From a virus: 26,768 bases of DNA. The stretch is from IMG/VR virus record IMGVR_UViG_3300033143_005437, positions 1 through 26,768 of that record; one strand, given 5' to 3'. Below, in pieces: positions 1 through 13,498 of the stretch. Below the pieces are notes generated by a model, which was not told where the DNA came from, did no database searches, and saw only the letters and a list, made by a program, of their open reading frames with translations. Position 1 is the first letter of the stretch; every line of letters begins with the position of its first letter. The position numbers and the translations under genes are program-made.

Positions 1-1
1 A

Positions 2-1753
2 AATGAGATTATTAAATCAATCCAATCAGTTTTAAGTTCAAGTCAATTGGAGAATGGTGTATCAGCTTCGCTGATCACCATCTCGGAAGGACTTCAAGAT
101 GTTCAATCAGTTATTTTAAAATTGATTAATATAGACCCTTTACTTTCAAATGAGTATCTGTATAGCAGTATAGAGTTAAATCAAGCTGTATCAAGCTTAC
201 AAGGCGTTATATCAGAAGGAAAACAAGACACGGAAGTAATAAAATTAATATTGTCAGATGCTGAACAATCAATCCAGGCAATTATCAATGATGTATCCAA
301 TTTATCAGATCTTTTTGGAATTCAAAAATTACTTGGTTCTCTTTATGAAATTCCTACTCAATTTTCATCTATTGATTATAAAATTTATTTAGATGGAACA
401 GATATTTCAAGTTTGATTAGTTCAGAAATCACTATTGAAAAAAATCAAAGTAATATACATAATGCAATAAGTTTTTCTTCAATATCTCAAGATTTATTTG
501 ACAAAGCAGATCCCTCAAATCTTCAAGGGGAAATGAGAATTGAGGTGCATATTGGAAATTCCGTTATGTTTTTCCTTCTTGAAGAACGAACACATACTTT
601 TGAAGGTACAGTTTCTTATTGGGGCAGGGATATTACCGCAAAAGAATCTTCTCCATGGGCTTCCTCTGTTTCTGTTTCTTTATCTGAATGGACTTCAGCT
701 AAAGATTTATGTGAATCATTGGTTGTTTATACCGTAATTAATTGGGATATTCTTGATTGGATGCTTCCAGATAATTATGAAAGTACAGGAACACCTATTG
801 AAATCATACAAGAAATTGTTTCTGAAATCGGTGCTATTATTAGAGCAAATGACGATGGTTCTTTATATATTAGATATCCTTTTCCTGTAAGACCTGTTGA
901 TGTTAAAATAGCAAGTTCAATTCATTCTTATTCATCTGCTATGGTTTATGGTGTTGATTATTCAGAAGAAAAAAAAGAAGGTTATAATATTGTCACTGTA
1001 ACTGCTGACACAAATGATAAAGTTGCGCCGATTCTTGAAGTTGAGGATACTATTGGTGATTCCAGAATTATTGGAGAAGAAACATATATAAGAGCTTTTT
1101 ATTATGAAGATCCTTCAATTGAACCATCTGTTTTAATACAAGATCAAACAGATGGTTCTATTACTTTTTTAAATAAAGATAATTATGAAGTAACAGAAAT
1201 AATAACTTTTATTAATGGTTATGGTTCTTCCAGTTATCCAATATTAGGAACTTTAAAAGAAATTTCATGGCTTGGAAGAGGTAGTGCAATTTTAACCTGG
1301 GATCAATATTCAACAGATATTATTTTAGAGAATGAGGATACTTGTCTTGCAGAAATAACTTATGATTCCGAATATTATCGTTATAAAGTATCAGAGCATA
1401 GCGTAGAAGAGCTTTTAATAATTTTTGAGATACAAAGTACATTTCTTTCTTCTGTACAAGTTATAACAGCTCCTATTGATTCTGACAAAGAAGGGGATGA
1501 AATAACAACCAGTCTTTTGACAAGTCAAGCAACATTAATTAAACGAGGTGAAATCTGGATTGATTCAAATAAATATGATAACGAAATAATAACTTTTGAA
1601 TCTCCTTTCTTAGAAGATATTAATGATGGTTCGATTGTTTGGTTTGAAACTGATAGAATTACCCCTGGGAATTATCAAATAATGGATTCGAGTATTTCTA
1701 TTTCAGGACCAAAAGTTGTTAATAAAATGGAAATAAAAAAATGGCAAATATAA
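2..1753 (+). CDS. Baseplate/tail hub-like structural protein, 5' partial
   Basis: The frame is open from base 2, so the gene starts upstream of the window; no start with a convincing ribosome site is visible. About the first 110 visible residues are Ser/Gln/Ile-rich with helical, coiled-coil-like spacing. From the stretch IDYKIYLDGTDISSLIS onward the protein is beta-rich and resembles tail hub proteins of the gpD/gp27 type: a short domain with a ligand-like DGTDI segment, then a central part with RYPFPVRPVDV. The next gene encodes a small OB-like protein and overlaps by 13 bp, an order common for a hub and its partner. The hub role is an inference from general pattern and context; that it is a virion protein is more secure. 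It could instead be a tail-fibre adaptor. Confidence 0.6.
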   Translation, partial: NEIIKSIQSVLSSSQLENGVSASLITISEGLQDVQSVILKLINIDPLLSNEYLYSSIELNQAVSSLQGVISEGKQDTEVIKLILSDAEQSIQAIINDVSNLSDLFGIQKLLGSLYEIPTQFSSIDYKIYLDGTDISSLISSEITIEKNQSNIHNAISFSSISQDLFDKADPSNLQGEMRIEVHIGNSVMFFLLEERTHTFEGTVSYWGRDITAKESSPWASSVSVSLSEWTSAKDLCESLVVYTVINWDILDWMLPDNYESTGTPIEIIQEIVSEIGAIIRANDDGSLYIRYPFPVRPVDVKIASSIHSYSSAMVYGVDYSEEKKEGYNIVTVTADTNDKVAPILEVEDTIGDSRIIGEETYIRAFYYEDPSIEPSVLIQDQTDGSITFLNKDNYEVTEIITFINGYGSSSYPILGTLKEISWLGRGSAILTWDQYSTDIILENEDTCLAEITYDSEYYRYKVSEHSVEELLIIFEIQSTFLSSVQVITAPIDSDKEGDEITTSLLTSQATLIKRGEIWIDSNKYDNEIITFESPFLEDINDGSIVWFETDRITPGNYQIMDSSISISGPKVVNKMEIKKWQI

Positions 1754-2001
1754 ATAATTTATTTTCAAATGAAAAAAAGGAAGTAACAATTTCCAGAGTA
1801 ACCGGATTAGGTTCTACTGGGGAATTTAAAGTTTCTGTAAATGGATTAATTAGAAGAGTAAATTCTGCTATATCAGAAACAATTAAAGTTGGTGATACTG
1901 TAATTCTTAATAAATCACCTCATGGAAAATATTATATTGTAGGAATTACAATTGGATTAGGAAATTCAAATAACGTATTGGAGGTTTTTAAAAATGGCTA
2001 A
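1741..2001 (+). CDS. Small OB-fold-like tail/baseplate protein
   Basis: An 86-residue protein. The middle (TISRVTGLGSTGEFKVSV, then VGDTVILNK and YYIVGIT) alternates short beta strands with glycine turns, as in the OB domains of baseplate hub or spike proteins. It starts inside the last codons of the hub-like gene (13-bp overlap) and its end overlaps the next start by 8 bp, so translation is probably coupled. No catalytic residues or membrane segment are seen. The OB assignment is inferred from strand pattern only. Confidence 0.6.
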   Translation: MANINNLFSNEKKEVTISRVTGLGSTGEFKVSVNGLIRRVNSAISETIKVGDTVILNKSPHGKYYIVGITIGLGNSNNVLEVFKNG

Positions 2002-2530
2002 TTCTTCTTTGACAATAAGTTTTTCTACAAGTGTAGTAGATGCTAATTTATATATTGATATGGATTTAGATGACGAATTAAATGAAGGTAATACTTCTTT
2101 TGCTTTTGGTAGTGGTTCTGTTTATTTTAGATTATTTACTAATTGTTCTAATGTAAGTTTTATTGCAAGTGAAAGCGAGGGCACTTCCCCATCAAGCACA
2201 ACTGGTGAAGGAAGTGAAACTGCGGAAATAACGGAAATAATCATTTTTGCACAAGATCCTGCTTCCGTTGAAGACAATAACACTTCTTTGTCTTATGCTG
2301 CTGAAAGTTTTTCTGCATCTGCAATTTCAGCGGTTTCTTGTGGCACAGTTTCCCTTGATCCAAATGATAGTTTAAATAAAACAGTAATAGCAAGTCAACA
2401 CGGTGTTGGTGTTTATGAAGCTTCCTATGATGCAAAATATCACAGCATAAGTATTGAAGCACCCACAATGCCTTCTGGTTGGGATACTGAAGAAAGTTAC
2501 CCTGTAGTTATTGTTGCTGTGGGATCATAA
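1994..2530 (+). CDS. Beta-rich virion protein of unknown function
   Basis: A 178-residue, Ser/Thr/Asn-rich acidic protein with no signal peptide or membrane segment. The start is well supported by GGAGG eight bases ahead of the ATG. The sequence is built of short strands separated by polar loops, including a flexible Ser/Gly/Thr/Glu stretch around residues 55-75, which suits an exposed structural protein. It lies between the hub/OB pair and further structural genes in the same direction with almost no spacing, so it is probably a tail or baseplate component. I do not recognise the family. Confidence 0.6.
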   Translation: MANSSLTISFSTSVVDANLYIDMDLDDELNEGNTSFAFGSGSVYFRLFTNCSNVSFIASESEGTSPSSTTGEGSETAEITEIIIFAQDPASVEDNNTSLSYAAESFSASAISAVSCGTVSLDPNDSLNKTVIASQHGVGVYEASYDAKYHSISIEAPTMPSGWDTEESYPVVIVAVGS

Positions 2531-2531
2531 T

Positions 2532-3314
2532 ATGACATCTTCATATATTACTACAAATTTTTCTTCTGAAAGCACATCTTCTGATCTTTCAGCGGAATTA
2601 GAACTTGATGGTGAATACCATGTATCTTTATATGGAATTGAAAAAATATCTTTTTCTATAAATGAATTGGTGTATTTAAAAGTACGTCCAATTTATAGTG
2701 TAGAACCATATACAATTCAAATATCTTCTGGTTCTTGTAAAAAAGTAAATCAGGGTAATGTTGAAGAAATTGTGGAATATTTATCATTTAAAAATACTAC
2801 TTCAGCTTCTTTATCATACATGCCAATAGGTTGTATTTCTACAGAATGGAGTGCTGGGAGTGCTGGTTCTGTTTTAATATCTGGAAATGTTATCACTATT
2901 CCCTCTTCTGCATTAGCTATTTTAAAATGCACTTATGAAATTGAATTTGATCGTTTATGTTTAACTGCTCCTTCTAATTTATCAGATGAAGAGATACTTG
3001 TAATGGTTGGTTCTGATCTGTATGGGTATGCAGATATATCAGTTGATTATTCTGGAGGTATTGGGATTATAACAGACATTACATTAACTATTAAAGATGT
3101 AATGTCTGATGATATTATCCCAGATGCCACAATAGAACTTTCTAAAGAAGGTATTGTTCTTTTTACTGGTACTTCTAATGCAGAAGGGGAAATTACAATT
3201 CAAGGAATTTGTTCTACTGGAGAAACTTATGATATAAAAACAACAGCTACATCATATTTTGATTCCGATGTTGATTATTTAAATAATGATTCTTTTACGG
3301 TTCCTGTGGATTAA
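2532..3314 (+). CDS. Virion protein with C-terminal Ig/carboxypeptidase-regulatory-like domain
   Basis: The ATG at 2532 is one base after the previous stop and is preferred over the in-frame ATG at 2511, which lies inside that gene. The product has 260 residues. The first two thirds is beta-rich and unrecognised. The last ~80 residues (from ITDITLTIKDVMSDDIIPDA, with the pattern TGTSNAEGEITIQGI) look like a carboxypeptidase-regulatory or Ig-type beta sandwich, in which a DG/EG turn follows a T-x-N-x-G motif. Such modules serve as spacers or sugar-binding decorations in phage tails. Structural role inferred from context. Confidence 0.6.
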   Translation: MTSSYITTNFSSESTSSDLSAELELDGEYHVSLYGIEKISFSINELVYLKVRPIYSVEPYTIQISSGSCKKVNQGNVEEIVEYLSFKNTTSASLSYMPIGCISTEWSAGSAGSVLISGNVITIPSSALAILKCTYEIEFDRLCLTAPSNLSDEEILVMVGSDLYGYADISVDYSGGIGIITDITLTIKDVMSDDIIPDATIELSKEGIVLFTGTSNAEGEITIQGICSTGETYDIKTTATSYFDSDVDYLNNDSFTVPVD

Positions 3315-3318
3315 TGAT

Positions 3319-6012
3319 ATGGTAAATTTTACAATTCATTTAAGTTCAATAGAACCTACAACAATTGAAAATAAAACTGTTTCTTCTGCATTTACTCAAG
3401 AAGATGGAGGCATTGCTATACCGATGCTCCCAGTAAATGCAGCAAATTCAGATATAAATATTGAAATTTTACTTAGAAAAACTGTTGATAATTATGTTCA
3501 TGCTGTTTTTGGACCAGATAGTCCTTACATAAGTTGGGAAAGAACCTATATTGAATTTGAAAATTCTGATAAAATTTCACCTCAATCAAGTATAACAATA
3601 GAATTTAAAAATCCTGTAAATGGTAGAAGGGCTGAATCATATTGGGGAAATTCAACTGTAAGTGCAAAAAATTCAGGTGAAATAACTGAACATTACCCAT
3701 TCATTGTTAAAAACTTTTTCTCTGATGGCTTTAATTTAGGAGAAATCCCTGAAAGTTCTTCGGGTGTTTGGGAAAGAACTGTTCCTGAAACATATACACA
3801 TATAGAGACTCAACCCATAGTTAGACCTGGGGAATATTTATCTCTTAAATGGGAACTTAGAGTAAATGGCAAGACATTTACATCATTATCAATGATATGT
3901 CCGTATGATACACCGTTGTTTACTGGTGGATGGATTACAGGCAAAACTGGAGAAGGTGTTGATGTCCGTTATTCTGTTGAAGTTTTCGGTGATATAATAA
4001 CAAATATAATCCCTACAGATTTTTATGACTATCAAGTTGGTAAATGGGTTTATTTAATGAAAACAGTTACTTTAACATTAGACCCGGATCAAGATAATAA
4101 ACAAATGTATGGTTCCTCTGGAATTTCTTCCGATAATTCATCTTCAGTTAGTACAGTTTTTACTGATACTAATAGCGAAAGAGTATTACTTGGATTAGAT
4201 CCGTTAACAATAAATTCTAAATTAAATACAATGGCACAACTACATGCTGATGATATGGCACGGAATACATTTGTTTCGCATGATGGATCTGATGGATCTA
4301 CCACAGCATCAAGATTTGAAGATTCAAATTATTCTGATGGTTACGTATCGGGAGAAGATTATTTAGCAGGGGAAAATGTGGCAGGATATTATCAACCAAG
4401 TGTTGTAGTAGATGAATGGATGGGTTCACCTGGACATAGAGCAAATATAATAAATACTATATTTGAAGAAATAGGCATAGGGGTTGCAATAGGGGCTGAT
4501 GGTTATTATTACTATTGTCAAGTTTTTGGTTATAAAAGTTGGGGGGATGGTGATAGTACTTATGATGGGAATTACAGAATCGTTCCTTTTAATTTTAAAG
4601 GGCCAATGAATACCGAATGCGCTGTTCCTTACGAAGATGCTATTGACTTAGATTCCGCTATAAATTTTGAAGAAGTTTTTGATATGATAACTTATGAATC
4701 TATCATCTCAAATATTGATTATGATAATGATACTGCCACAGTAACAACATCAACAGGTGAAGTACAAGATGATGTTCCAATTTTTTATTATTGTGATGGT
4801 TCTATTACTGATGTTGCTGGTGGAGCAGGTGCTTTTACTGATGGTGATCAAGTTATTGTTCAAGCACCTGAATCAGGTGACACTTCCCAATTTAAAATAA
4901 TTGGTTTTCCTGATGAGATAAAAATATGTGGTGATGGTTATTTATATTGCGAAAGCAATCATGGAGATTGTTTTTTTTGGGATATGGAATTAAATAATTA
5001 TGCTGAAAATATAAAAGATAATAATGGTCAGACAATAGTAAGTTGGCCTATTGAAATTAGCAATATTACCAATTTCAAAAGTAGACTAACAGCCATTGGG
5101 TCTAATGCAATTCAAAGCCAAGAGATACAAGATGATATTATTTGGACCGGCGGGATTACATATACAGGTAATGGTGTTTGTCTTCCCTCTTACGACCCGA
5201 ATAGGTCAATTGGTAACTGGTTAGGCGAAATCGAAGTTTTTGATGAAAATGGCGATGAAGTTATATTATATTACACCAGGGAAACTGAAGGAGAGGCTTC
5301 GTACCAGGGATATATCAACACATCAACTTTTGAATACCCTGCTGTTGTGGATGATGCTAACTGCAAATCACATGAACTTACATCATTGTCAAATGTTGGT
5401 GGTATAAGGGGTGTTCTGGTTAGCAAAAACGCTGACACCTTTGTGAGTGATAAATGGGGCTATACAATACCTCTTGAGTTTTGTGATATCGGAATGAAAT
5501 GGCTTACTTGCCCATATAAATATTATGAAGATGTACAAGAATATTCTTATGTTTATGAGATAAAATCACCATTTTCTGAAGGGGAGGATATAGATTTTGA
5601 TATATCTGTTGATATAAATGGAATATATTCAATAGATAACTACGAATATATTGATTATGGACTTTGTTCAGGGTCAGAAATAGATGGACTTGACCATGTA
5701 GAAGAGGAGTTACTATCTTCAGAATTTAAACTAAAAAGCCTGATTGTTGATAGTAAAAATCCTTATATGATTGTTGCGGCTCAAAACGTAAGAGAAATAA
5801 GAACTATCACCAGAGGACCAACTCATGATGATGGCACAGAAACAACGGACGAAACCATAAAAAGTTGGGATGTTTTTTCAGGAAAAGATACAGGAACTCC
5901 ACCTGATCCTATGAATTTAAACCCATTTGAATTACCTGCAAACAATGATTTGAGAGTAGCAATTGAAAATCTTGTTGATGATGAATTGACAAAAATAGAA
6001 TTTTTATTTTGA
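3319..6012 (+). CDS. Large virion protein with an embedded CAP (SCP/PR1-like) domain
   Basis: 897 residues from the ATG at 3319, four bases after the preceding stop; an in-frame ATG at 3286 lies inside the upstream gene and lacks a ribosome site. Residues about 285-408 form a CAP domain: LHADDMA (H309), SHDG (H321), GENVAG (E352), VVDEWMG (E366) and SPGHRANI (H373), ending in YYYYCQVFGY. These match the His/Glu cavity of the family, whose members act outside cells and whose chemistry is often unclear. The ~280 residues before it and ~490 after are beta-rich, and residues roughly 470-540 (including DYDNDTATV and DGDQVIVQ) resemble an OB/spike-type fold. No signal peptide is seen, as expected if it is assembled into a tail. 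It may degrade or bind host surface material. Confidence 0.75.
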   Translation: MVNFTIHLSSIEPTTIENKTVSSAFTQEDGGIAIPMLPVNAANSDINIEILLRKTVDNYVHAVFGPDSPYISWERTYIEFENSDKISPQSSITIEFKNPVNGRRAESYWGNSTVSAKNSGEITEHYPFIVKNFFSDGFNLGEIPESSSGVWERTVPETYTHIETQPIVRPGEYLSLKWELRVNGKTFTSLSMICPYDTPLFTGGWITGKTGEGVDVRYSVEVFGDIITNIIPTDFYDYQVGKWVYLMKTVTLTLDPDQDNKQMYGSSGISSDNSSSVSTVFTDTNSERVLLGLDPLTINSKLNTMAQLHADDMARNTFVSHDGSDGSTTASRFEDSNYSDGYVSGEDYLAGENVAGYYQPSVVVDEWMGSPGHRANIINTIFEEIGIGVAIGADGYYYYCQVFGYKSWGDGDSTYDGNYRIVPFNFKGPMNTECAVPYEDAIDLDSAINFEEVFDMITYESIISNIDYDNDTATVTTSTGEVQDDVPIFYYCDGSITDVAGGAGAFTDGDQVIVQAPESGDTSQFKIIGFPDEIKICGDGYLYCESNHGDCFFWDMELNNYAENIKDNNGQTIVSWPIEISNITNFKSRLTAIGSNAIQSQEIQDDIIWTGGITYTGNGVCLPSYDPNRSIGNWLGEIEVFDENGDEVILYYTRETEGEASYQGYINTSTFEYPAVVDDANCKSHELTSLSNVGGIRGVLVSKNADTFVSDKWGYTIPLEFCDIGMKWLTCPYKYYEDVQEYSYVYEIKSPFSEGEDIDFDISVDINGIYSIDNYEYIDYGLCSGSEIDGLDHVEEELLSSEFKLKSLIVDSKNPYMIVAAQNVREIRTITRGPTHDDGTETTDETIKSWDVFSGKDTGTPPDPMNLNPFELPANNDLRVAIENLVDDELTKIEFLF

Positions 6013-6027
6013 TAGTGCGTTAACATT

Positions 6028-6060
6028 TAAATAATTTAAGTATTTTTATTAAATTATTTA
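6028..6060. other. AT-only inverted repeat between structural genes
   Basis: An 11-bp perfect inverted repeat (TAAATAATTTA and its complement TAAATTATTTA) around an 11-base loop, just after the CAP protein gene. The stem has no G or C, so it is a weak hairpin and no better than a poor terminator or processing site. Confidence 0.25.
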
Positions 6061-6080
6061 TCAAACAATTCAAAGAAGGA

Positions 6081-6272
6081 ATGAAAATTTCAAGAATGCT
6101 GTACCCAATTTTGATTGAATGCGTGAGAAAGATTCAAAAGGGGATCATAGATACTCATAACATTCCAATCAAGTTATTTGAGACAGGGAGAGATTTTGAG
6201 TGCCATAAAATATTGATTAATAAAGATAGAACAAAAGGTATGTATATAACTCTTAACCTTGAAACAATTTAA
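6081..6272 (+). CDS. Short protein resembling the N-terminal half of a phage M15-type peptidase
   Basis: 63 residues. The stretch IPIKLFETGRDFECHKILIN followed by KDRTKG has the shape of the start of phage M15 D-Ala-D-Ala peptidases (an FET-x-R segment, then leucines and a G/D-R-T turn). The zinc and catalytic part of that family (S-x-H-x(6)-D and a later H) is absent because the frame stops. It may therefore be a remnant, or an unrelated small protein. AAGGA abuts the ATG, which is poor spacing. It sits between the large virion protein and the fibre module. Assignment is from pattern memory only. Confidence 0.4.
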   Translation: MKISRMLYPILIECVRKIQKGIIDTHNIPIKLFETGRDFECHKILINKDRTKGMYITLNLETI

Positions 6273-6287
6273 TTAAACTGTTAAACT
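6259..6287 (+). promoter_or_regulatory. Possible sigma70-like promoter ahead of the fibre module
   Basis: TTGAAA (6259-6264) and TAAACT (6282-6287) are separated by 17 bases, upstream of the genes at 6316 and 6653. The -10 matches consensus at only four of six positions and the region is AT-rich, so chance is a real possibility. Confidence 0.25.
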
Positions 6288-6315
6288 ATTACATAAACAA
6301 GGAGGAAAAATACAA

Positions 6316-6645
6316 ATGGAAAAACGTGTACCAGTAGACCCAGCCGGAAATATCGCAGCAGTTGGTAGTTCTGGATTTTCAGAATCTTTAACAGCTAATG
6401 GTTCTTGGCAAGAAATCACTCTTGCCAACGAATGCAAAACTTTAAATATCCAGTGCGATGCTGGTGATAATGTTTATACCCACATTGATAACCCGGTTGA
6501 ATTTCATTATTGTTTTAATTCTGATGGAACCGGTAGAGGTTATTGTTCTGGATTAGAATTATCTATTGCTTGTGAAATAGGGGAAACCGTTTGTTATGTC
6601 AAAACAACCGCTGATCTTGTTTTTTCTATTAATGGTTTGAAATAA
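6316..6645 (+). CDS. Small beta-rich virion protein ahead of the tail fibre
   Basis: 109 residues, with a strong AGGAGG ribosome site. The composition (Gly, Ser, Asn, several Cys) and strand pattern (SFSESLTANGSWQEITLANE onward) resemble the small accessory proteins, often of tail-fibre or decoration type, coded just ahead of phage fibres. It ends eight bases before the fibre gene, with that gene's AGGAGG in between, so the two are very likely made together. No enzyme motif or membrane segment. Specific role unknown. Confidence 0.65.
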   Translation: MEKRVPVDPAGNIAAVGSSGFSESLTANGSWQEITLANECKTLNIQCDAGDNVYTHIDNPVEFHYCFNSDGTGRGYCSGLELSIACEIGETVCYVKTTADLVFSINGLK

Positions 6646-6652
6646 GGAGGTA

Positions 6653-9481
6653 ATGATGCATTCTGGAATAAAAACAAAAACCCCTTCTGTTTCACAAGGC
6701 AAATTGGAAGCTTATGTTGCTGCCCAAATTGCTGGAGGTGTGACTTATGAAGGTGGTTACAATGCTGATACAAACACTCCCGATCTTGATACTTCCCCTT
6801 CCGGGATAATGAAAGGGGAAATGTATACTGTCACAGTAGCAGGAACGTTCTTCACAGCCGTTTTAGAAGTTGAGGATGTCCTAATATCAGAAAAAGATGA
6901 TCCTACGTTAGAAACAGACTGGACTATCATAAATAAGAATATCCCTATCAGTGAAGTTTTGCATAATGCTTTATCTGATTTGCAAGGTGGTATTTGGCAT
7001 TTAACTGAAGAGGAAAAAACAAAGGTTGGTTCTCTTCTTAATGCTCATGTAGATTCACCAATGATTATTTCTGGTGGAGAAATTTCAGAAGGAACTAATG
7101 CCGGTACATTTAAAGTTGCCGCATTGACTTCGCTTCTCAGGATTACAGATGACGTTCTGGGTGTTCTTTCTTACGAAACATTAGCAGAACAAGACAACCA
7201 GGCAATAACAGCAGCAGATACCACATATTTTATTTGTTTAGATTACAATGGTGGTACTCCGCAGATTGTTTTAGATACCACTAATCCTTATACAAGGACA
7301 TCTTCACCTGATAGAACACAGATTCCCATTGGAAAAGTAATGAAAGATTCCAGTGACAATGTTCATTTTATTTCTGGTGGTTATAATTTCCAAGATGCAC
7401 CTGAAAAATTTCATACACGAATAATGACTCTGCATAATCATACTTTAGCAAGTGGTTCTGCAATTGCCTATTCAGGAACAAATAATTTTACTATGGAGGT
7501 GGGTAGTGTATATGGAGGTGTTAATTCATACGATTTAAATTCTTATAATTCTGCTTCTGTAACTTTTATACCTGTGTATGGTGATGTCCCTGGAACTGGT
7601 TTTACAGAAGGGGCAGCAAGAAACACAATTGATTTTGCACATTATGACGATGGTTCGGGAACGCTTGCAGATGTTAATAATGCGAAATTTGCTTGTTTCT
7701 GGATTTATAGACATATTGATGATGGCGATGTTTATGTTATATATGGTTCTTGTAATGGATCTCTTGCTGAAGCTGAATCAGCAGAAGAACCTGATAAACC
7801 AACGCATTTAACTGATTTTGGGATTCTCATAGGAAAAGTTGTCACACCGAAAGCTGGTGGTTCTTTTGCATTGGTTCAAATGATTACAGATACTAAATTT
7901 GCCGGTACGTCTGCTTCTGACCATGGGAATTTAACTGGTTTGGAAGATGATGACCATCCCCAATACATTAAAGATTCTGAATTTACTGCTGCTGATGAAG
8001 TTATGGTTGGTACAGGGGCAGGTACTTTTACGAAAGTAACCCTCGGTGCTTCTGAAATTCTTGGTAAAAAAGCAACTGGGAATGCAGATAACCTGACTGC
8101 TTCTGAAGTTCGTACTATTTTAAATATTGAGGACGGTGCTACAGCAGACCAAACAGATGCAGAAATACTTGCAGCATTTGAAAATGAAAATCAAGGTGTA
8201 TCAACAACTGATACTCCTGAATTTGTTGGGTTGACTATTAGTGGTGTCCCAATCACAAACGATTATGTATATGGAATTCGTTATAATGAAACAACCGATG
8301 TAATAACAAAAGGTGTTATTGTAAACGGTATATTTGTTGAGTCTGAATATACAGATTACCCAATACAAAATGCCCATAGTAGAGTATTGAAAGATTGTAT
8401 TACAGGTGAAGAACATTATCTCAATTCATCTGATTCAAATTATTTACAAGATGGTGTAACCGCTGCAACTTTTGACGGTACTGCTGGTGATGTTTATAGT
8501 AAAAGTCCTAAGTTTTATGAGTTGTGGTGTAGAGACGAAACCTATATGTATGTGCTTGTTTCATTTTCTGCTTTTTCTTTTAATGGCTATACTGCAATAG
8601 TACCTCCTCATTTTAACGGAAAAGATTTTTATTATTATGATTGTTTTGAAGGTGTTTTATACGATGATTCTGCATCGGCAGTAATTACTGGTGATGGTAC
8701 TTCCAGTGCTGATAATGCTAATGATTCTATAAGATCATTGCCTGGATTTAAGCCATGGGCATATCAAACACGTCCTGATTTTAGAGTTTTATATAGAAAT
8801 AGAGGTGGAAACACACATCAACAAAGTTGGAGCAGTTATCAAAGTCTCACTGCTTTGTTTGTAACTAAATATGGGACGTGGGACTCTCAAACAGCTCTTC
8901 CAGGGTATACGGATGCTTCTACATATTCTTATGATTATGTACGTAATACAGGAAGAACATTGGGATTAGGTAATACTGATGGTTCTATTTTAGTTGCTTT
9001 AGGAACTACTGATTCTGATTTGGCAGGAATAGTTGCAGCGGATAAATATATTGCTAATTCTTTTTTAGGAATAGAAAATATATTTGGACATTTGTGGAAA
9101 ATTATAGATGGGATAAATATTGATAATACAATTGGTTTATGTAAAGTTTATACTTCTACGGATTACTTAAACTTTGCTGATAATACTGCAATTAATTATA
9201 TGGATACAGGACAAGCCCCTGCTTTTGGGGATAATGATGGTTATATAAAAAGTGTTTATGGAGAAGGAAACTATGCTCCTTTATATCCTAAAACATTGGG
9301 TGGTTCTTCTTCTACATATTTTTATGGTTATCATTATAATACAAGTGGTGATTGGCGGCTTATGACTTCGGGTGGGCATCTTTCGGTTGGGCTGAAGTCG
9401 GGTCTCTGTACTTTCGCTGCGAGTACTTCTTCTGCTAATCGTGATTCGTCTGTCGCTTCTCGGGGTGGGGTTATGTCTTAA
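6653..9481 (+). CDS. Tail fibre/receptor-binding protein with DGR-diversified C-type-lectin-like tip
   Basis: 942 residues, preceded by AGGAGG; a second ATG follows at 6656. The N-terminal ~100 residues resemble fibre attachment regions. The middle carries widespread fibre signatures: DHGNLTGLEDDDHPQY (about 423-437) and GATADQTDAEI (about 496). The last ~370 residues look like a C-type-lectin/formylglycine-enzyme-type fold, including GIENIFGHLWKIIDG (about 806-820), a segment typical of DGR target proteins. Residues 899-942 are encoded by the variable region. Positions where the template would give Asn carry His909, Val912, Thr920, Ala922, Ser924, Thr925, Asp931 and Ser933, which are the expected ligand-contact sites. 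The stop codon directly follows the VR. It probably binds the host receptor at the fibre tip. Confidence 0.88.
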   Translation: MMHSGIKTKTPSVSQGKLEAYVAAQIAGGVTYEGGYNADTNTPDLDTSPSGIMKGEMYTVTVAGTFFTAVLEVEDVLISEKDDPTLETDWTIINKNIPISEVLHNALSDLQGGIWHLTEEEKTKVGSLLNAHVDSPMIISGGEISEGTNAGTFKVAALTSLLRITDDVLGVLSYETLAEQDNQAITAADTTYFICLDYNGGTPQIVLDTTNPYTRTSSPDRTQIPIGKVMKDSSDNVHFISGGYNFQDAPEKFHTRIMTLHNHTLASGSAIAYSGTNNFTMEVGSVYGGVNSYDLNSYNSASVTFIPVYGDVPGTGFTEGAARNTIDFAHYDDGSGTLADVNNAKFACFWIYRHIDDGDVYVIYGSCNGSLAEAESAEEPDKPTHLTDFGILIGKVVTPKAGGSFALVQMITDTKFAGTSASDHGNLTGLEDDDHPQYIKDSEFTAADEVMVGTGAGTFTKVTLGASEILGKKATGNADNLTASEVRTILNIEDGATADQTDAEILAAFENENQGVSTTDTPEFVGLTISGVPITNDYVYGIRYNETTDVITKGVIVNGIFVESEYTDYPIQNAHSRVLKDCITGEEHYLNSSDSNYLQDGVTAATFDGTAGDVYSKSPKFYELWCRDETYMYVLVSFSAFSFNGYTAIVPPHFNGKDFYYYDCFEGVLYDDSASAVITGDGTSSADNANDSIRSLPGFKPWAYQTRPDFRVLYRNRGGNTHQQSWSSYQSLTALFVTKYGTWDSQTALPGYTDASTYSYDYVRNTGRTLGLGNTDGSILVALGTTDSDLAGIVAADKYIANSFLGIENIFGHLWKIIDGINIDNTIGLCKVYTSTDYLNFADNTAINYMDTGQAPAFGDNDGYIKSVYGEGNYAPLYPKTLGGSSSTYFYGYHYNTSGDWRLMTSGGHLSVGLKSGLCTFAASTSSANRDSSVASRGGVMS
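9348..9478 (+). repeat. DGR variable region (VR)
   Basis: 131 bp at the very 3' end of the fibre gene, aligned without gaps to 9507-9637. I count 26 mismatches, all opposite an A in the TR: 16 to G, 7 to C and 3 to T. The remaining 13 or so TR adenines and all other bases are identical. Homology ends at the shared TTATGTCT; the next bases are the fibre stop codon in one copy and unrelated sequence in the other. Changes reach to within nine bases of the 3' end, so the unmutated homing segment must be short. Confidence 0.95.
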
Positions 9482-9506
9482 AATTTTTTTACAAGTAAAT
9501 ATAATT

Positions 9507-9637
9507 GTGATTAGCAGATTATGAAATCAGGTGGGAATCTTTCGAATGGACTGAAATCAGGTCTCTGTAATTTCAATGCGAATAATTCTTCTACTAATCG
9601 TAATTCGAATATCACTTCTCAGGGTAGGATTATGTCT
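9507..9637 (+). repeat. DGR template repeat (TR)
   Basis: 131 bp, the donor copy for 9348-9478. Read in the frame of the VR it is dense in AAT codons (Asn at the positions of fibre residues 909, 912, 920, 922, 924, 925, 929, 931 and 933), the usual DGR design in which AAY codons can become many amino acids. In that frame it also has a TAG where the VR has TGG (Trp901). An open frame of 63 codons runs through it from 9521 but is best seen as a by-product of the repeat. It is expected to be transcribed as the non-coding template RNA. Confidence 0.95.
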
Positions 9638-9748
9638 ATAAAAATTAACTTTTTTATATTTACTTTGGCTCTTGCCAGAATAGGATGTCACACAACAGAA
9701 GTTAGTAGGTAACCCGAAAATTTCTTAAAAGACATAAATGGAAAATAA
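9638..9748 (+). other. Spacer between TR and reverse transcriptase
   Basis: 111 bp without a supported gene. In studied DGRs this part of the RNA folds and helps prime cDNA synthesis. Two small hairpins can be drawn: TGGC-TCTT-GCCA at 9666-9677, and GTTA-loop-TAAC at 9701-9713. Both are short, so structure here is only suggested. Confidence 0.4.
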
Positions 9749-10871
9749 ATGAAACGTCATGGTAATTTATATTTTAAAATCTGTTCTTCTGAAAATATAA
9801 GAACAGCACATATAAATGCACAGAAGAATAAAAAACATTATTCTTCTGTAAAGGAAATAAATAAAAATCCTAAAAAGTATTTACAAGAAATAAAAAAAAC
9901 AGTTAGAAAATAAAACTTTCATAAATTCTGAATATGAAATCTTTATTAAAAAAGGAAAAAAAGACAGGGTTATTTATAAACTCCCTTATTTTCCTGATAG
10001 AATAGTCCAACATGCTATCATGAATATATTAGAACCTATATGGAAAAGTATTTTAATAAGAGATACTTATTCAGCTATAAAAAATAGAGGGATACATGAT
10101 GGTGTAAAAAGAATGAAAAAATTTCTCTCGAATAAAAAAGAAACAAAATATTGTTTAAAAATGGATATTAGAAAATACTATCCAAGTATTGATAATGAAA
10201 TATTAAAAACAATAATAAGGAAAAAAATAAAATGTGAAAACACATTATGGTTATTAGATGTTATAATTGATTCTGCTAAAGGCATTCCTATTGGAAATTA
10301 TTTATCACAATACTTTGGTAATTTATATTTATCACCATTAGATTACTGGATAAAACACGAAAAAAGAATTAAATATTATGCCCGATATTGTGATGATTTT
10401 TTAATTCTTCATAATGATAAAAATTATTTACATTCATTAAGAAAAGAAATAGAAATATTTCTTAATGAAAAACTTAAATTAAAATTAAAAGGCAATTTCC
10501 AAGTATTTCCTGTAAAAGAACATGGGATTGATTTTTTAGGTTATGTATTTTTTCATAATAAAGTGCATGTAAGAAAAGATATTGTCACTTCATTTTATAG
10601 AAAAGTTAAAAATATAAAAAAGAATTGGAGGGAATTAAAATATACAGAAATAATAAATACTGTAATGAGTTATTATGGTTGGTTGACATATGCAAACCAT
10701 AATGGATTGTGGAATATGATAATTGATAATGAAATGAAAATTATTTTTAAAACTATTTGCAAAGAAAATAATATCAAAAACCCTTTACTTAAAAGGAATA
10801 TAAAATATGGTTCAATCAGATATTTATCCAGAAATAAAAAAACTTCAAAATTGCATTATGGTTCCTTATGA
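9749..10871 (+). CDS. DGR reverse transcriptase, broken by a frameshift at an A8 run
   Basis: Two frames together make one protein of about 373 residues, a normal DGR length. The first (9749-9913) begins MKRHGNLYFKICSSENI, a typical DGR reverse transcriptase start. The second, open from 9894, continues KDRVIYKLPYFPDRIVQHAI, then the catalytic-Asp motif KMDIRKYYPSID, GIPIGNYLSQYFGN (IGxxxSQ, the DGR form of the QGxxxSP motif), YARYCDDFLIL (YxDD box) and GIDFLGYVF. The join lies at eight adenines, 9892-9899; one A fewer would make a single frame. The first ATG of the second frame (10020) comes after the first conserved block, so it is unlikely to be a true start. The break may be a sequence error, a real inactivating mutation, or be corrected by slippage. 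Confidence 0.88.
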
Positions 10872-11253
10872 TATCGAAGAGGTTACTATTGATGAATCTG
10901 TTTTTTATCAATATAAAATTTATAGAAATAAAAATATTTCCATGGATATAACCAATAATGATGTTATCAAAACTTTAAAACTTGAAATCTTAAATATCAA
11001 AAAGAAAGAAAAACTGAATGCAGGTTTTGAAGTTAACGGTATTTTGTTTGATTACGATAATAATGCAAGAATTGCTTACAGAGAGCTAAAGGATACTTTT
11101 AGAGACAATCCATCATTCTTAACTTCATGGAAGGCTTCAGAAGGACAATGGATTACCATGGATGCTGAAATGTTTTCAATTATTGAAATTGCTGGTAAAT
11201 CCCATATTTCAAAAATATTTAATTGGCTTGCAATAGAGCAATCAAAATTGTAA
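10807..11253 (+). CDS. DUF4376-like phage protein, possible fibre-assembly helper
   Basis: 148 residues. The last ~90 (KLNAGFEVNGILFDYDNNAR, then SFLTSWKASEGQWITMD) match my memory of the DUF4376 domain: a helix, a G-F/V-V-x-G-I-x-F-D-x-D turn, then W-K-x-x-D/E-G. Those proteins sit beside tail-fibre genes in many phages and are thought to aid fibre assembly. AAGGA seven bases before the ATG supports the start, giving a 65-bp overlap with the reverse transcriptase end; an in-frame ATG at 10858 is a weaker choice. It is acidic and does not look like the basic four-helix Avd protein of DGRs. Confidence 0.65.
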   Translation: MVQSDIYPEIKKLQNCIMVPYDIEEVTIDESVFYQYKIYRNKNISMDITNNDVIKTLKLEILNIKKKEKLNAGFEVNGILFDYDNNARIAYRELKDTFRDNPSFLTSWKASEGQWITMDAEMFSIIEIAGKSHISKIFNWLAIEQSKL

Positions 11254-11267
11254 AAGGGAGGGATAAA

Positions 11268-11681
11268 ATGGGATGGTTTTGGCAAGAATGGAAACCAGAG
11301 ATATCTGGAGTGATATCAAGTGGTAAATTGTATCGGAAGTTGCGGAAAATCTGCCCAGAAGCGCAGGTGATTTGCATGGATCGGGAATATCAGATCCCTG
11401 CTGATCCGGCTGATGTCATTTGGCGATGTTCACCACGGTATTTTGTTTATCAAAAAGAATCCCGCGATTGCGACGACAGCGTGCGGATCGCCAGGGGGTG
11501 GTTATCTTCAAAGAATTTCGGTGATCTGCTAGTAATGGATTGTGTGATCAACCCCCATGGCCCTGGCCCTAACCATGCTCTCCTGGCGTTTTTGGATGGA
11601 GATAAAATCGTTTTTGGAGAACCGCAAACCGGTAAAATGAGGACGTTTGAAAATGTTGAAATAATTCGATTGATTGCATAA
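11268..11681 (+). CDS. GC-richer protein with Cys-His papain/transglutaminase-like pattern
   Basis: 137 residues from the ATG at 11268, preceded by GGGAGGG; an in-frame ATG at 11223 lies inside the upstream gene. The order SRDCDDSVRIARGWL (Cys), then GPNHALLAFLDGDKIVFGEP (His, then Glu), followed by QTGK, is the Cys...His...Glu arrangement of papain-like/transglutaminase-like folds. A peptidase or amidase acting on the cell wall would suit its place just ahead of holin-like genes, but that is inference. Base composition stands out: sampled 60-bp rows are 52-58% G+C, against about 20% in a nearby reverse transcriptase row. This suggests recent gain from a higher-GC source, possibly the host or another phage. 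Confidence 0.6.
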   Translation: MGWFWQEWKPEISGVISSGKLYRKLRKICPEAQVICMDREYQIPADPADVIWRCSPRYFVYQKESRDCDDSVRIARGWLSSKNFGDLLVMDCVINPHGPGPNHALLAFLDGDKIVFGEPQTGKMRTFENVEIIRLIA

Positions 11682-11905
11682 TGGAGCTGACAATGAACGG
11701 AACTATAACCAGGGCTGATTTTGACAAGGGCGACATTGACGAAAAGTTAGGTATTATTTTTGAGACACTCCAAAGTAGAGAACAAACCTGCATGCTAAAA
11801 ATAACTAAACTTGAAAAACGAAAGAAATTTGACACTGTTATTGGTGGTATGGGTGGTATTGTTGGAGGGTTTATTGCAGCCTGGGCATGGGTTAAATTAA
11901 AATAA
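11681..11905 (+). CDS. Small one-span membrane protein, holin/XhlA-like
   Basis: 74 residues if translation starts at the ATG overlapping the previous stop (TAATG); a second ATG at 11693 has a better-spaced GGAG and would give 70. A charged helical N-terminal part (KLGIIFETLQSREQTCMLKI) is followed by one glycine-rich membrane helix (TVIGGMGGIVGGFIAAWAWV) and a short basic tail, the layout of XhlA-type holin accessory proteins. Two small neighbours in the same direction and the terminator after them fit the end of a lysis cassette. Confidence 0.6.
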   Translation: MELTMNGTITRADFDKGDIDEKLGIIFETLQSREQTCMLKITKLEKRKKFDTVIGGMGGIVGGFIAAWAWVKLK

Positions 11906-11917
11906 GGAAATGAAAAA

Positions 11918-12085
11918 ATGAATTTTGATGCTGTTATAGTTGAATTTGTGACTAACAATTATCTAACTTTAACAATCGTATTTACGGCATTGAAAGGCAT
12001 AGCAAAAATCACCCCCTTTGCATGGGATGATTCTATTGTGTCTTTATTGTTTGGTGCTTTTAAGTCAATCAATCCTAAAACATAA
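11918..12085 (+). CDS. Small hydrophobic protein, holin-module candidate
   Basis: 55 residues. AAGGA lies about seven bases before the ATG. A hydrophobic stretch (YLTLTIVFTALKGIAKITPF) is followed by AWDDSIVSLLFGAF and a short polar end. Small proteins of this shape (hydrophobic helix, then W-x-D-D) occur next to phage holins, and its gene directly follows a holin-like gene. It is the last + strand gene before the terminator. The function is not known, and membrane insertion is likely but unproven. Confidence 0.55.
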   Translation: MNFDAVIVEFVTNNYLTLTIVFTALKGIAKITPFAWDDSIVSLLFGAFKSINPKT

Positions 12086-12150
12086 TAACGTTTGATAGAG
12101 GGGACATAATGGAAGGGTCATAGAAGGAAAGAAACTCATTGTAAACGAAC

Positions 12151-12199
12151 AGAAAAGGGCTTTAACAAGATATGTATTGCCTTGTTAAAGCCCTTTTCT
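12151..12199. terminator. Perfect 19-bp inverted repeat, bidirectional terminator
   Basis: AGAAAAGGGCTTTAACAAG (12151-12169) and its exact complement (12181-12199) flank an 11-base loop. On the + strand the stem ends in TTTTCTTTTTATT; on the - strand it ends in a shorter T-rich run. It lies between the end of the virion/lysis block and the end of the - strand block, which is where a two-way intrinsic terminator is expected. Confidence 0.88.
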
Positions 12200-12204
12200 T
12201 TTTA

Positions 12205-12621
12205 TTAAATGGAATTAATCATATTGATTAGTGTTTTGGCCCTTTGACCTGCCTGATTAAACCATTTTGAATCTTTAATTTCTGCTGCAACACCGGGCCA
12301 ATCTTGTCTTTCTGCTTTCTTGATCATGTTTTTAAAAGAACGAAAACCTTTAGGACCAAGATTAAAACGAAGATCTACAAAAACTAACCAAGCATTTGAA
12401 GGTATTAAATCATACGTTTTTGAAAATATTTTTATTAAATCAGTCTCACATTCGGCTATGTCATTTTTCAAAAGGTATTCGGCTTCCTTTCTTGATATTC
12501 CTTTATCATCAAGGTTGCGGCCATAACCAACAGTGCATAAGTAAGGGAATCTCCGATAACTTTCATGGAGTTTAAGTTGTTTCATTATTTTTTCTTCAAA
12601 ACTTTCAGCTATAAAAGTCAT
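12205..12621 (-). CDS. GH24 phage lysozyme (endolysin)
   Basis: 138 residues. LHESYRRFPYLC, VGYGRNLDDKGISRKEAEYL and, later, FVDLRFNLG are the hallmarks of T4/P22-type lysozymes, which cut the glycan strands of peptidoglycan. Glu20 is the catalytic acid, and Thr30 probably fills the place of the conserved Thr. Relatives I know have a few more residues between the Cys and the GYGRN motif, so the active-site loop appears shortened here. No signal peptide is seen, so release needs a holin, perhaps the convergent + strand small membrane proteins. It overlaps the preceding gene by four bases (ATGA) and is last in the - strand block. Confidence 0.88.
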   Translation of the reverse strand: MTFIAESFEEKIMKQLKLHESYRRFPYLCTVGYGRNLDDKGISRKEAEYLLKNDIAECETDLIKIFSKTYDLIPSNAWLVFVDLRFNLGPKGFRSFKNMIKKAERQDWPGVAAEIKDSKWFNQAGQRAKTLINMINSI

Positions 12622-12794
12622 TTTTTTATTCTATTTTTTAATTTCTTCTTTGGTTCAACCATTTCTTCCATTGCTTTTAAAATAAGTTTAGTCATTGAAA
12701 TACCTTTATCAAAAGAATAATATCGAAACTTAGTATGCAATTCTTTTGGAGTATTTACTGTAATCATAACTGAATCATTAGAAAGATTAGACAT
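12618..12794 (-). CDS. Ribbon-helix-helix DNA-binding protein
   Basis: 58 residues. A strand VMITVNTPKELHTKF is followed by a helix, GISMTKLI, and a second helix LKAMEEMVE. This is the ribbon-helix-helix plan of CopG/Arc/ParD-like proteins, which bind DNA as dimers through the paired strands. The tail is Lys-rich. An AGGGGA ribosome site precedes the ATG. Its stop overlaps the lysozyme start (ATGA), and the previous small gene ends two bases before it, so it is part of one tightly packed unit. It may regulate phage transcription; no matching operator was identified. Confidence 0.65.
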   Translation of the reverse strand: MSNLSNDSVMITVNTPKELHTKFRYYSFDKGISMTKLILKAMEEMVEPKKKLKNRIKK

Positions 12795-12795
12795 A

Positions 12796-12957
12796 TTATT
12801 CCCCTTTTTTAATTTTCCTTCTCAATTTGCAATCTTTAAAAGATAATCGCCATGATATCTTTTTAGAATACAAAAACAAACAAGATTTAATGAATTGGGA
12901 TTTTAATTTATCACCGTCAATTCCTATTTGAAAAGGATTTCCATATTTGAACCACAT
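12796..12957 (-). CDS. Small basic protein of unknown function
   Basis: 53 residues starting MWFKYGNPFQIGIDGDKLKS and ending in a Lys/Arg-rich tail. AAGGG stands five bases before the ATG, and its stop lies one base before the next ATG, so its end also supplies the next ribosome site. That packing is the main support for it being real. No recognised domain. Confidence 0.5.
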   Translation of the reverse strand: MWFKYGNPFQIGIDGDKLKSQFIKSCLFLYSKKISWRLSFKDCKLRRKIKKGE

Positions 12958-13015
12958 CGTAACCCTTGATAATCATTTATACCACCCTATACTATTTTAT
13001 TAAACATATTTCACC

Positions 13016-13498
13016 TCAATAAGTAAGGGTATCATTTAATTGATTATATTTAATACCGACTTTTTCAAACATATCAACTGAACGTTTTCCATCATGATAA
13101 AAATTTTTAACAATTACTTTTTTAATTCCACAAGCAATAATAGACATCGCACAATTATAACAAGGCGTCATTTTACAATATAAAGTTGAACCATTTAAAG
13201 AAATTCCATATTTTGCAGCAAAATATATTGCATTCGCTTCAGCATGTATTGTTCTGGTACAATGTCTTGTTTCTTTTTCTTTTCCGATTGTAAACCTTGT
13301 TTCCATAAGATGACCAACATCATCACAATGAGGAAGTCCAGGAGGTGCACCAGCATACCCAGTAGAAAGTATTCTGTTATCCTTAACAATAACACAACCA
13401 ACTTTTCCACGATTACAAGTTGATCTTGTTGCAACTGCTTCCATAATATAGAAGAAATAATCATCCCAGGTTGGTCTTATATTTTTACATTCAATCAT
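13016..13498 (-). CDS. Deoxycytidylate (dCMP) deaminase
   Basis: 160 residues, close to the usual phage and ComEB-like length. It converts dCMP to dUMP, feeding dTTP synthesis for phage DNA. HAEAN (His85, Glu87) and PCYNC (Cys113, Cys116) form the zinc and catalytic site of the cytidine-deaminase fold. The conserved N-terminal segments RSTCNRGKVGCVIV and GYAGAPPGLPHCDD match the dCMP-specific branch; the additional His and Cys in the latter may hold a second zinc. It lies among small genes at the distal end of the replication block. High confidence in the family; allosteric control by dCTP/dTTP cannot be judged. Confidence 0.93.
   Translation of the reverse strand: MIECKNIRPTWDDYFFYIMEAVATRSTCNRGKVGCVIVKDNRILSTGYAGAPPGLPHCDDVGHLMETRFTIGKEKETRHCTRTIHAEANAIYFAAKYGISLNGSTLYCKMTPCYNCAMSIIACGIKKVIVKNFYHDGKRSVDMFEKVGIKYNQLNDTLTY

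Follow-up and report, generated by a model that had tools for sequence, protein, structure and literature searches.

How does a retroelement that rewrites part of a phage gene treat the adenines of its template, and can it still do so when its reverse transcriptase (RT) gene is split between two reading frames? Both questions are raised by a diversity-generating retroelement (DGR) in the 26,768-base IMG/VR virus record IMGVR_UViG_3300033143_005437, which was analysed whole and is called the window below; the target gene, the repeats, the RT frames and the ORF behind them lie on its + strand. We think it probable that this is an ordinary phage DGR, most likely inactive now because its RT gene loses its frame at a run of eight adenines (A8), and that its RT lineage copies in two modes. 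By the mechanism taken over from BPP-1, the RT would copy an RNA of the template repeat (TR) into cDNA, erring at adenines, and this cDNA would take the place of the variable repeat (VR), altering residues on a lectin-type domain at the tail-fibre tip. The present VR would have been written earlier by a working RT of this lineage, and the cassette would either have lost its activity recently or be in the "off" state of a tract prone to slippage. In the two modes of copying, an adenine before G would become G nearly always, and the other adenines would scatter over A, C, G and T. Retrohoming, receptor change and present inactivity are all things that we infer.

Adenine-specific differences between the repeats

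The top direct repeat in 8500-11500 is 136 nt long and 79% identical, and pairs the VR (9348-9483), at the 3' end of the target gene, with the TR (9507-9642), which lies between the target and the RT. Over 9348-9478 (131 nt, 39 TR adenines), the repeats differ at 26 positions, and 26/26 are TR adenines (hypergeometric P = 4.2e-18); the VR reads G at 16 of them, C at 7 and T at 3. This recomputation agrees in full with the count in the first-pass annotation of this DNA. The whole 136-nt repeat holds 28 mismatches, 1 of them at a TR thymine, and its last changed TR adenine is 4 nt from its end. In the target protein, 18 residues within 901-940 differ between TR and VR, as does residue 899, just outside the repeat. 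A single VR was found for the TR, with no second one in the window.

The 106 nt between TR and RT (9643-9748) were delimited by position, and relatives show similar distances. In BPP-1, the spacer-type region belongs to the TR RNA that recruits and primes the RT (PMC12875486; papers are cited here for the parts of their text that were accessible). By analogy, the spacer of the window may be part of such an RNA.

An adenine-biased VR/TR pair was present in 145/167 related RT loci. These loci come from searches limited to the best 80 of at least 576 viral relatives and the best 80 of 358 genome relatives; the sample is non-random and tilted to intact matches, although the search query started 3' of the RT break, and across the sets used a few contigs are duplicated (L065 and L067 repeat L003 and L004, and L372, in set D, is the contig of L029).

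The target gene and its predicted fold

The target gene (6653-9481) encodes a 942-aa tail-fibre-like protein, the C-terminal ~400 aa of which are assigned to a DGR variable-protein domain. Residues 479-937 match phrog_5302 (tail, E 4e-42); Pfam and NCBIfam gave no family for the protein, and the PDB gave no sequence match at E <= 1. Residues 538-942 (405 residues, 29 relatives in the alignment) were modelled by AlphaFold with a mean pLDDT of 86 and a pTM of 0.90. The closest solved structure was the DGR variable protein TaqVP (PDB 5vf4; Foldseek E 2e-8; VIA Z 24.6, rmsd 3.0, 268 aligned), followed by TvpA (Z 13.4) and Mtd (Z 12.9). Since the model resembles these three proteins, the variable residues are predicted to lie, like those of other DGRs, in a lectin-type domain, and the lectin-like C-terminus that had been proposed from the letters alone is upheld by the structure comparison.

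An Mtd_N domain (E 5e-14) was found in 1/30 target relatives, and ties this target family to the Mtd of BPP-1.

Placement of the RT among DGR enzymes

The motifs IGNYLSQ, YCDD and LPYFPDR all lie in the frame 9894-10871, in keeping with the IGxxxSQ and YCDD motifs of the first-pass annotation. This 3' part of the RT matches Pfam RVT_1 (E 8e-17), a PHROG reverse transcriptase family (E 2.5e-98) and PDB 8ub7 (E 4e-38), which we take to be the BPP-1 enzyme. Placement outside the DGR clade was the outcome that had been named as fatal to the DGR assignment; in a tree of 35 rows (30 of them selected relatives), with group II intron RTs as the sole outgroup, the RT groups with BPP-1 Brt and other DGR RTs and is split 100/99 from the two group II intron RTs. 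A plasmid RT adjoining an annotated avd gene also falls on the DGR side of this tree, where the RT of the window is placed as well. With the adenine-only differences and the lectin-type C-terminus of the target, this placement sustains the identification of the element as a DGR.

The cassette resembles the BPP-1 DGR (mtd, TR, brt, avd) in the adenine-specific VR/TR differences, in an RT with xGxxxSQ and YxDD motifs, in a tail receptor-binding gene that ends in the VR and encodes a lectin-type domain, and in a single TR near the RT. It differs from BPP-1 in that the RT is out of frame and in the last changed TR adenine, 4 nt from the repeat end. Two features of BPP-1 were also looked for without success, which weighs, with other points, against the assignment. 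No Avd match (PF05635) was found in the window at E <= 1, PF05635 being below the cut-off in 14/14 control genomes too; and no hairpin was found behind the VR, DNA folds of 9455-9530 and 9471-9515 being no better than shuffles (z -0.30 and -0.10). In NCBIfam, no DGR model matched the RT; its top match, with 106 bits against a cut-off of 300, was to a model for group II intron RTs. Finally, PvdO (Z 13.0) and formylglycine-generating enzymes (Z 11-12), which belong to the same fold class, tie with TvpA and Mtd as matches to the target model, so that, TaqVP aside, the modelled fold cannot separate DGR variable proteins from formylglycine-generating-enzyme-like enzymes.

Closer relatives reduce the novelty that had been claimed for the target and the layout. 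Besides the adenine-biased pairs at most related loci, crAss-like phage DGRs have RTs 44-51% identical to that of the window among the matches listed, and target homologues beside the RT: in cr50_1, cr115_1, cr53_1 and cr60_1, genes near the RT have C-terminal halves 23-25% identical to that of the target, whereas the N-terminal ~500 residues are the window's own. A DGR whose target gene is tail-associated has been published for a crAss-like phage (PMC7290462). The IMG/VR contig 3300027580_000051 (L014) has the same VR-TR-RT order, a target 53% identical over 413 residues and an RT 47% identical; unlike in the window, its RT is in one frame and its TR spells Trp as TGG, not TAG. The cassette itself is one more phage DGR, and the context rule described below is the most novel part of the analysis.

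Disruption of the RT gene at the A8 run

The conserved first 50 residues of the RT are read from ATG 9749, in a frame different from that of the rest of the enzyme. This N-terminal part (9749-9913, 54 codons, MKRHGNLYF...) ends at a TAA in its own frame and is homologous to the RTs of relatives, where the N-terminus and the remainder share one frame. The A8 run (9892-9899) lies where one frame gives way to the other, and the remaining 324 residues (from 9897) follow in the open frame 9894-10871. In this downstream frame, no ATG, GTG or TTG precedes ATG 10020, which itself lies behind the first conserved RT motif; the ORF listed from ATG 10020 is the 3' part of a longer gene. In this genotype the element is thus a DGR whose RT gene is disrupted.

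Given that the RT gene is out of frame, a cassette that is off is favoured: the genotype is probably off, or its RT is made by frameshifting alone. Beyond the break, decay of the RT is not apparent from its sequence. Both parts together keep 80/86 conserved positions, and 27/151 other RTs keep no more. Since the 131 nt of the repeats hold no non-adenine mismatch and these positions are kept, the loss of the RT would be recent. The DiGReF survey includes DGRs with inactivated RTs and intact VR/TR, one case being a frameshift (PMC3521204), and the window resembles them in having a broken RT while VR and TR differ at adenines alone; unlike those cases, its break lies at an A8 tract and is common to two contigs. 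A clean VR/TR pair is thus no proof of a currently active DGR.

Against present inactivity, it must be considered that frameshifting could join the two RT halves, that a working RT could serve the cassette in trans, and that the same assembly error might have arisen in both contigs. In the first case, RNA polymerase slippage or ribosomal frameshifting on A8 would join the frames in a fraction of the product and give a low, regulated level of RT. Conserved residues are kept on either side of A8, an A8 run also occurs within 11/167 related RT genes, transcriptional slippage on a poly-A tract rescues tssM in Citrobacter rodentium (PMC4256274), and in the AT-rich Buchnera homopolymers do lose single nucleotides during transcription (PMC5574713). 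The C. rodentium tract, however, is 11 adenines long and slips by insertion, whereas here there are 8 and a shift of -1 or +2 would be needed, and transcriptional deletions of this kind were rare in E. coli (PMC5574713). The break is also not conserved. At the break region, 160/167 related loci are in one frame and require no recoding, 6 are cut by an end and 1 (L029) is broken; a frameshift conserved in the RT family was rejected on this count. We regard recoding as unlikely.

In L029, at about 3880-4000, the N-terminal part of a related DGR RT likewise stands in a different frame.

A sequencing or assembly error at the homopolymer, with the RT intact in the real phage, seems improbable to us. 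The authors of DiGReF voiced this reservation about broken DGR RTs (PMC3521204), and a possible assembly fault is present nearby in a sister contig, IMGVR_UViG_3300033148_009018 (L002). This contig is 99.9% identical to the window and overlaps window 1-13246, over which it differs by 2 substitutions and a 10-bp insertion. It carries the same RT frame break, with no difference at A8, and this recurrence in two records, which are possibly not separate samples, counts against an error, as does the fact that other ORFs of the window with 8-base runs stay open (for example 47-1753, with an A8 at 969).

The 10-bp insertion in L002 is a tandem duplication at window 9211, upstream of the VR, which shifts the VR into another frame and cuts the target short at 863 aa. 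It is either an assembly fault or real.

It is also conceivable that another DGR RT in the same cell serves the cassette in trans, leaving its own RT free to decay. In Thiohalocapsa PB-PSB1, trans activity and disrupted DGR loci have been described (PMC10907252), but the RT halves here show no decay beyond the break, and we consider this reading very improbable.

Variation in the sister contig and in relatives

VR and TR are identical between the sister contig and the window. An inactive cassette would give identical VRs in both contigs, and the first-pass statement that the phage switches receptor specificity does not stand as worded, given that it was carried over from Bordetella, that the RT is frame-broken and that the VR of the sister contig is the same. 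A further point against present inactivity is that the identity of two VRs says little, because near-identical pairs of relatives also share a VR. Among 12 distinct locus pairs with an identical TR and no difference over the 247-300 bp upstream of the VR (pairs of L065 and L067 left out; 3/12 among the same three contigs), 6 had an identical VR. The VRs of the other 6 differed, at 91 sites in sum, all of them TR adenines. Since these 6/12 pairs differ in the VR solely at TR adenines, relatives do appear to vary, and mutagenic retrohoming is indicated in them. A scan of viral contigs with an exact pattern for part of the TR/VR, the adenines left open, matched the sister contig alone.

Adenine rewriting in relation to the 3' neighbour

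The outcome at TR adenines was assessed in 201 VR/TR pairs of this RT lineage (167 TRs, 4731 TR adenines), excluding gapped pairs and pairs with <80% of mismatches at A. The outcome tracks the base 3' of the adenine. At inner sites, defined as those >=20 nt from the 3' end and >=15 nt from the 5' end of the repeat, A before G became G at 226/240 sites (62/68 when restricted to the subclade of the window). Within tracts that have changed adenines on either side, it became G at 325/346 sites in 146 TRs, the remaining sites being 14 unchanged, 7 to T and 0 to C; when outcomes were shuffled within each pair in 500 runs, the highest AG-to-G count was 152. In the window, AG became G at 6/6 sites versus 10/33 for the other adenines (Fisher P = 0.0025). 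We are evenly balanced on the proposal that DGR RTs have lineage-specific context codes, and that the lineage of the window hard-wires an A 5' of G to G and randomises the rest. The context rule would then be a property of the enzyme, as we infer from these comparisons.

It is doubtful, but possible, that AG-to-G reflects selection or shared descent and not the enzyme; the VR would need Gly, Arg or Trp codons, the TR would drift to A, and homologous columns would have been recounted. Conserved residues are indeed restored, with CAG to CGG at 62/64 sites, CAC to CGC at 117/122 and AGC to GGC at 165/182; CAC is not an AG context, and selection or fixed end differences therefore act there. By codon context, inner AG sites are mostly CAG (198/240 sites, 97% G), with TAG at 20 (90%), GAG at 14 (71%) and AAG at 8 (75%). 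At inner synonymous third positions, G was also common before T (16/28) and C (4/8), and many of the synonymous AG sites are one homologous position. The predominance of CAG, together with G at synonymous sites before T and C, weakens the context code. On the other hand, inner synonymous sites before G became G at 70/76 (50 TRs) versus 12/37 before A, so that protein selection is not the whole cause of the rule. The mean G fraction over 27 TR clusters was 0.91 for AG, versus 0.28 for AA, 0.57 for AC and 0.23 for AT, and the AG sites are flanked by other rewritten adenines. Moreover, in 85 groups of VRs separately rewritten from one TR (59 being several VRs in one locus; the groups overlap and are not fully independent), G was found in all group members at 207/224 AG sites, versus 49/504 for AA, 115/600 for AC and 18/420 for AT.

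Two further explanations were rejected. Re-use of the 3' neighbour as template, which has been proposed for the AC and ACC contexts of BPP-1 (PMC12875486), would give A to C before C, and this was seen at 24/1066 sites. Fixed VR/TR differences outside the copied tract were rejected as the cause for sites inside rewritten tracts, and likely play a part near the repeat ends.

Short-type cassettes show a near-fixed TR/VR difference near the 3' end, A to T in 90/93 pairs at one column. Such differences lie beyond the random zone and perhaps mark the VR apart from the TR; L005 and 58 other loci have >=2 VRs per TR.

If the context rule is true, TAG would be written as Trp, CAG as Arg and AGN as Gly; the first G of a GG in the TR could drift to A and back with the product unaffected, and an in-frame TAG in the TR would be harmless. 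The TR of the window has such a TAG in the target's frame at 9512-9514, and its VR counterpart at 9353-9355 is TGG (Trp901). In the codon counts (206 VR/TR pairs, at a 70% limit for mismatches at A), 6/6 in-frame TR TAG codons read TGG in the VR. Decay of the TR was rejected as an explanation of this codon, in-frame TR stops being present in 14/136 distinct pairs (window included; for 4 targets with ORFs <240 nt the frame is unsure). With the A8 frame break added, the cassette may be switchable.

Lineage dependence of the context rule

The AG-to-G figure differs between RT lineages. Loci found with BPP-1 Brt and a related plasmid RT had 10/25 inner AG sites as G, versus 226/240 in the window's lineage (Fisher P = 1.3e-10), and 5/15 by the tract rule. 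Loci found with the ANMV-1 RT had 8/61, with 50 unchanged, and those retrieved with a Bacteroides phage RT, partly of the same lineage as the window, had 66/83. When the three sets were binned by bits to the RT of the window, AG became G at 66/82 (>=200), 8/31 (150-200), 5/20 (100-150) and 0/26 (<100) sites; the lineage sets do not form separate clades, set D overlapping the window's lineage. In distant lineages, AG sites are few and selection for an unchanged codon may lower the figure. These comparisons suggest that the AG-to-G rule holds in the window's RT lineage and not in distant lineages.

The error profile of BPP-1 is likewise dominated by the 3' neighbour, with G incorporation raised before C (PMC12875486). 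No report of the AG-to-G rule was found in the literature on DGR mutation context within reach, which took in neither most subscription papers nor bioRxiv preprints. RTs of this lineage occur in phages, Bacteroidota and other genomes. If A to G before G is near-deterministic, it no longer suffices to say, as is usual, that random bases replace the adenines of the template; for many metagenomic DGRs, of which more than 30,000 have been described (PMC8144416), the expected repertoire size and the risk of stop codons would change, and TR design for engineered hypermutation should follow the RT lineage.

Other features of the contigs

An ORF at 10807-11253 overlaps the 3' end of the RT; it is weakly similar to DUF4376 (below the cut-off) and to phage tail families, and has no Avd match. 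Neither the window nor the part of the sister contig beyond it yielded a tRNA, and tRNAs therefore give no clue to the host. Among the tail genes of the window, 3286-6012 encodes a 908-aa protein with a CAP (cysteine-rich secretory protein) domain (E 3e-18). An inverted repeat at 12148-12202 lies between two convergent gene blocks and is perhaps a bidirectional terminator. In the sister contig, a 256-aa ORF (L173:15645-16412) matches both HNH endonuclease and terminase-small-subunit families. Where the sister passes the left end of the window, a 109-bp stretch is repeated with 92% identity (L173:3918-4026 versus window 1-109).

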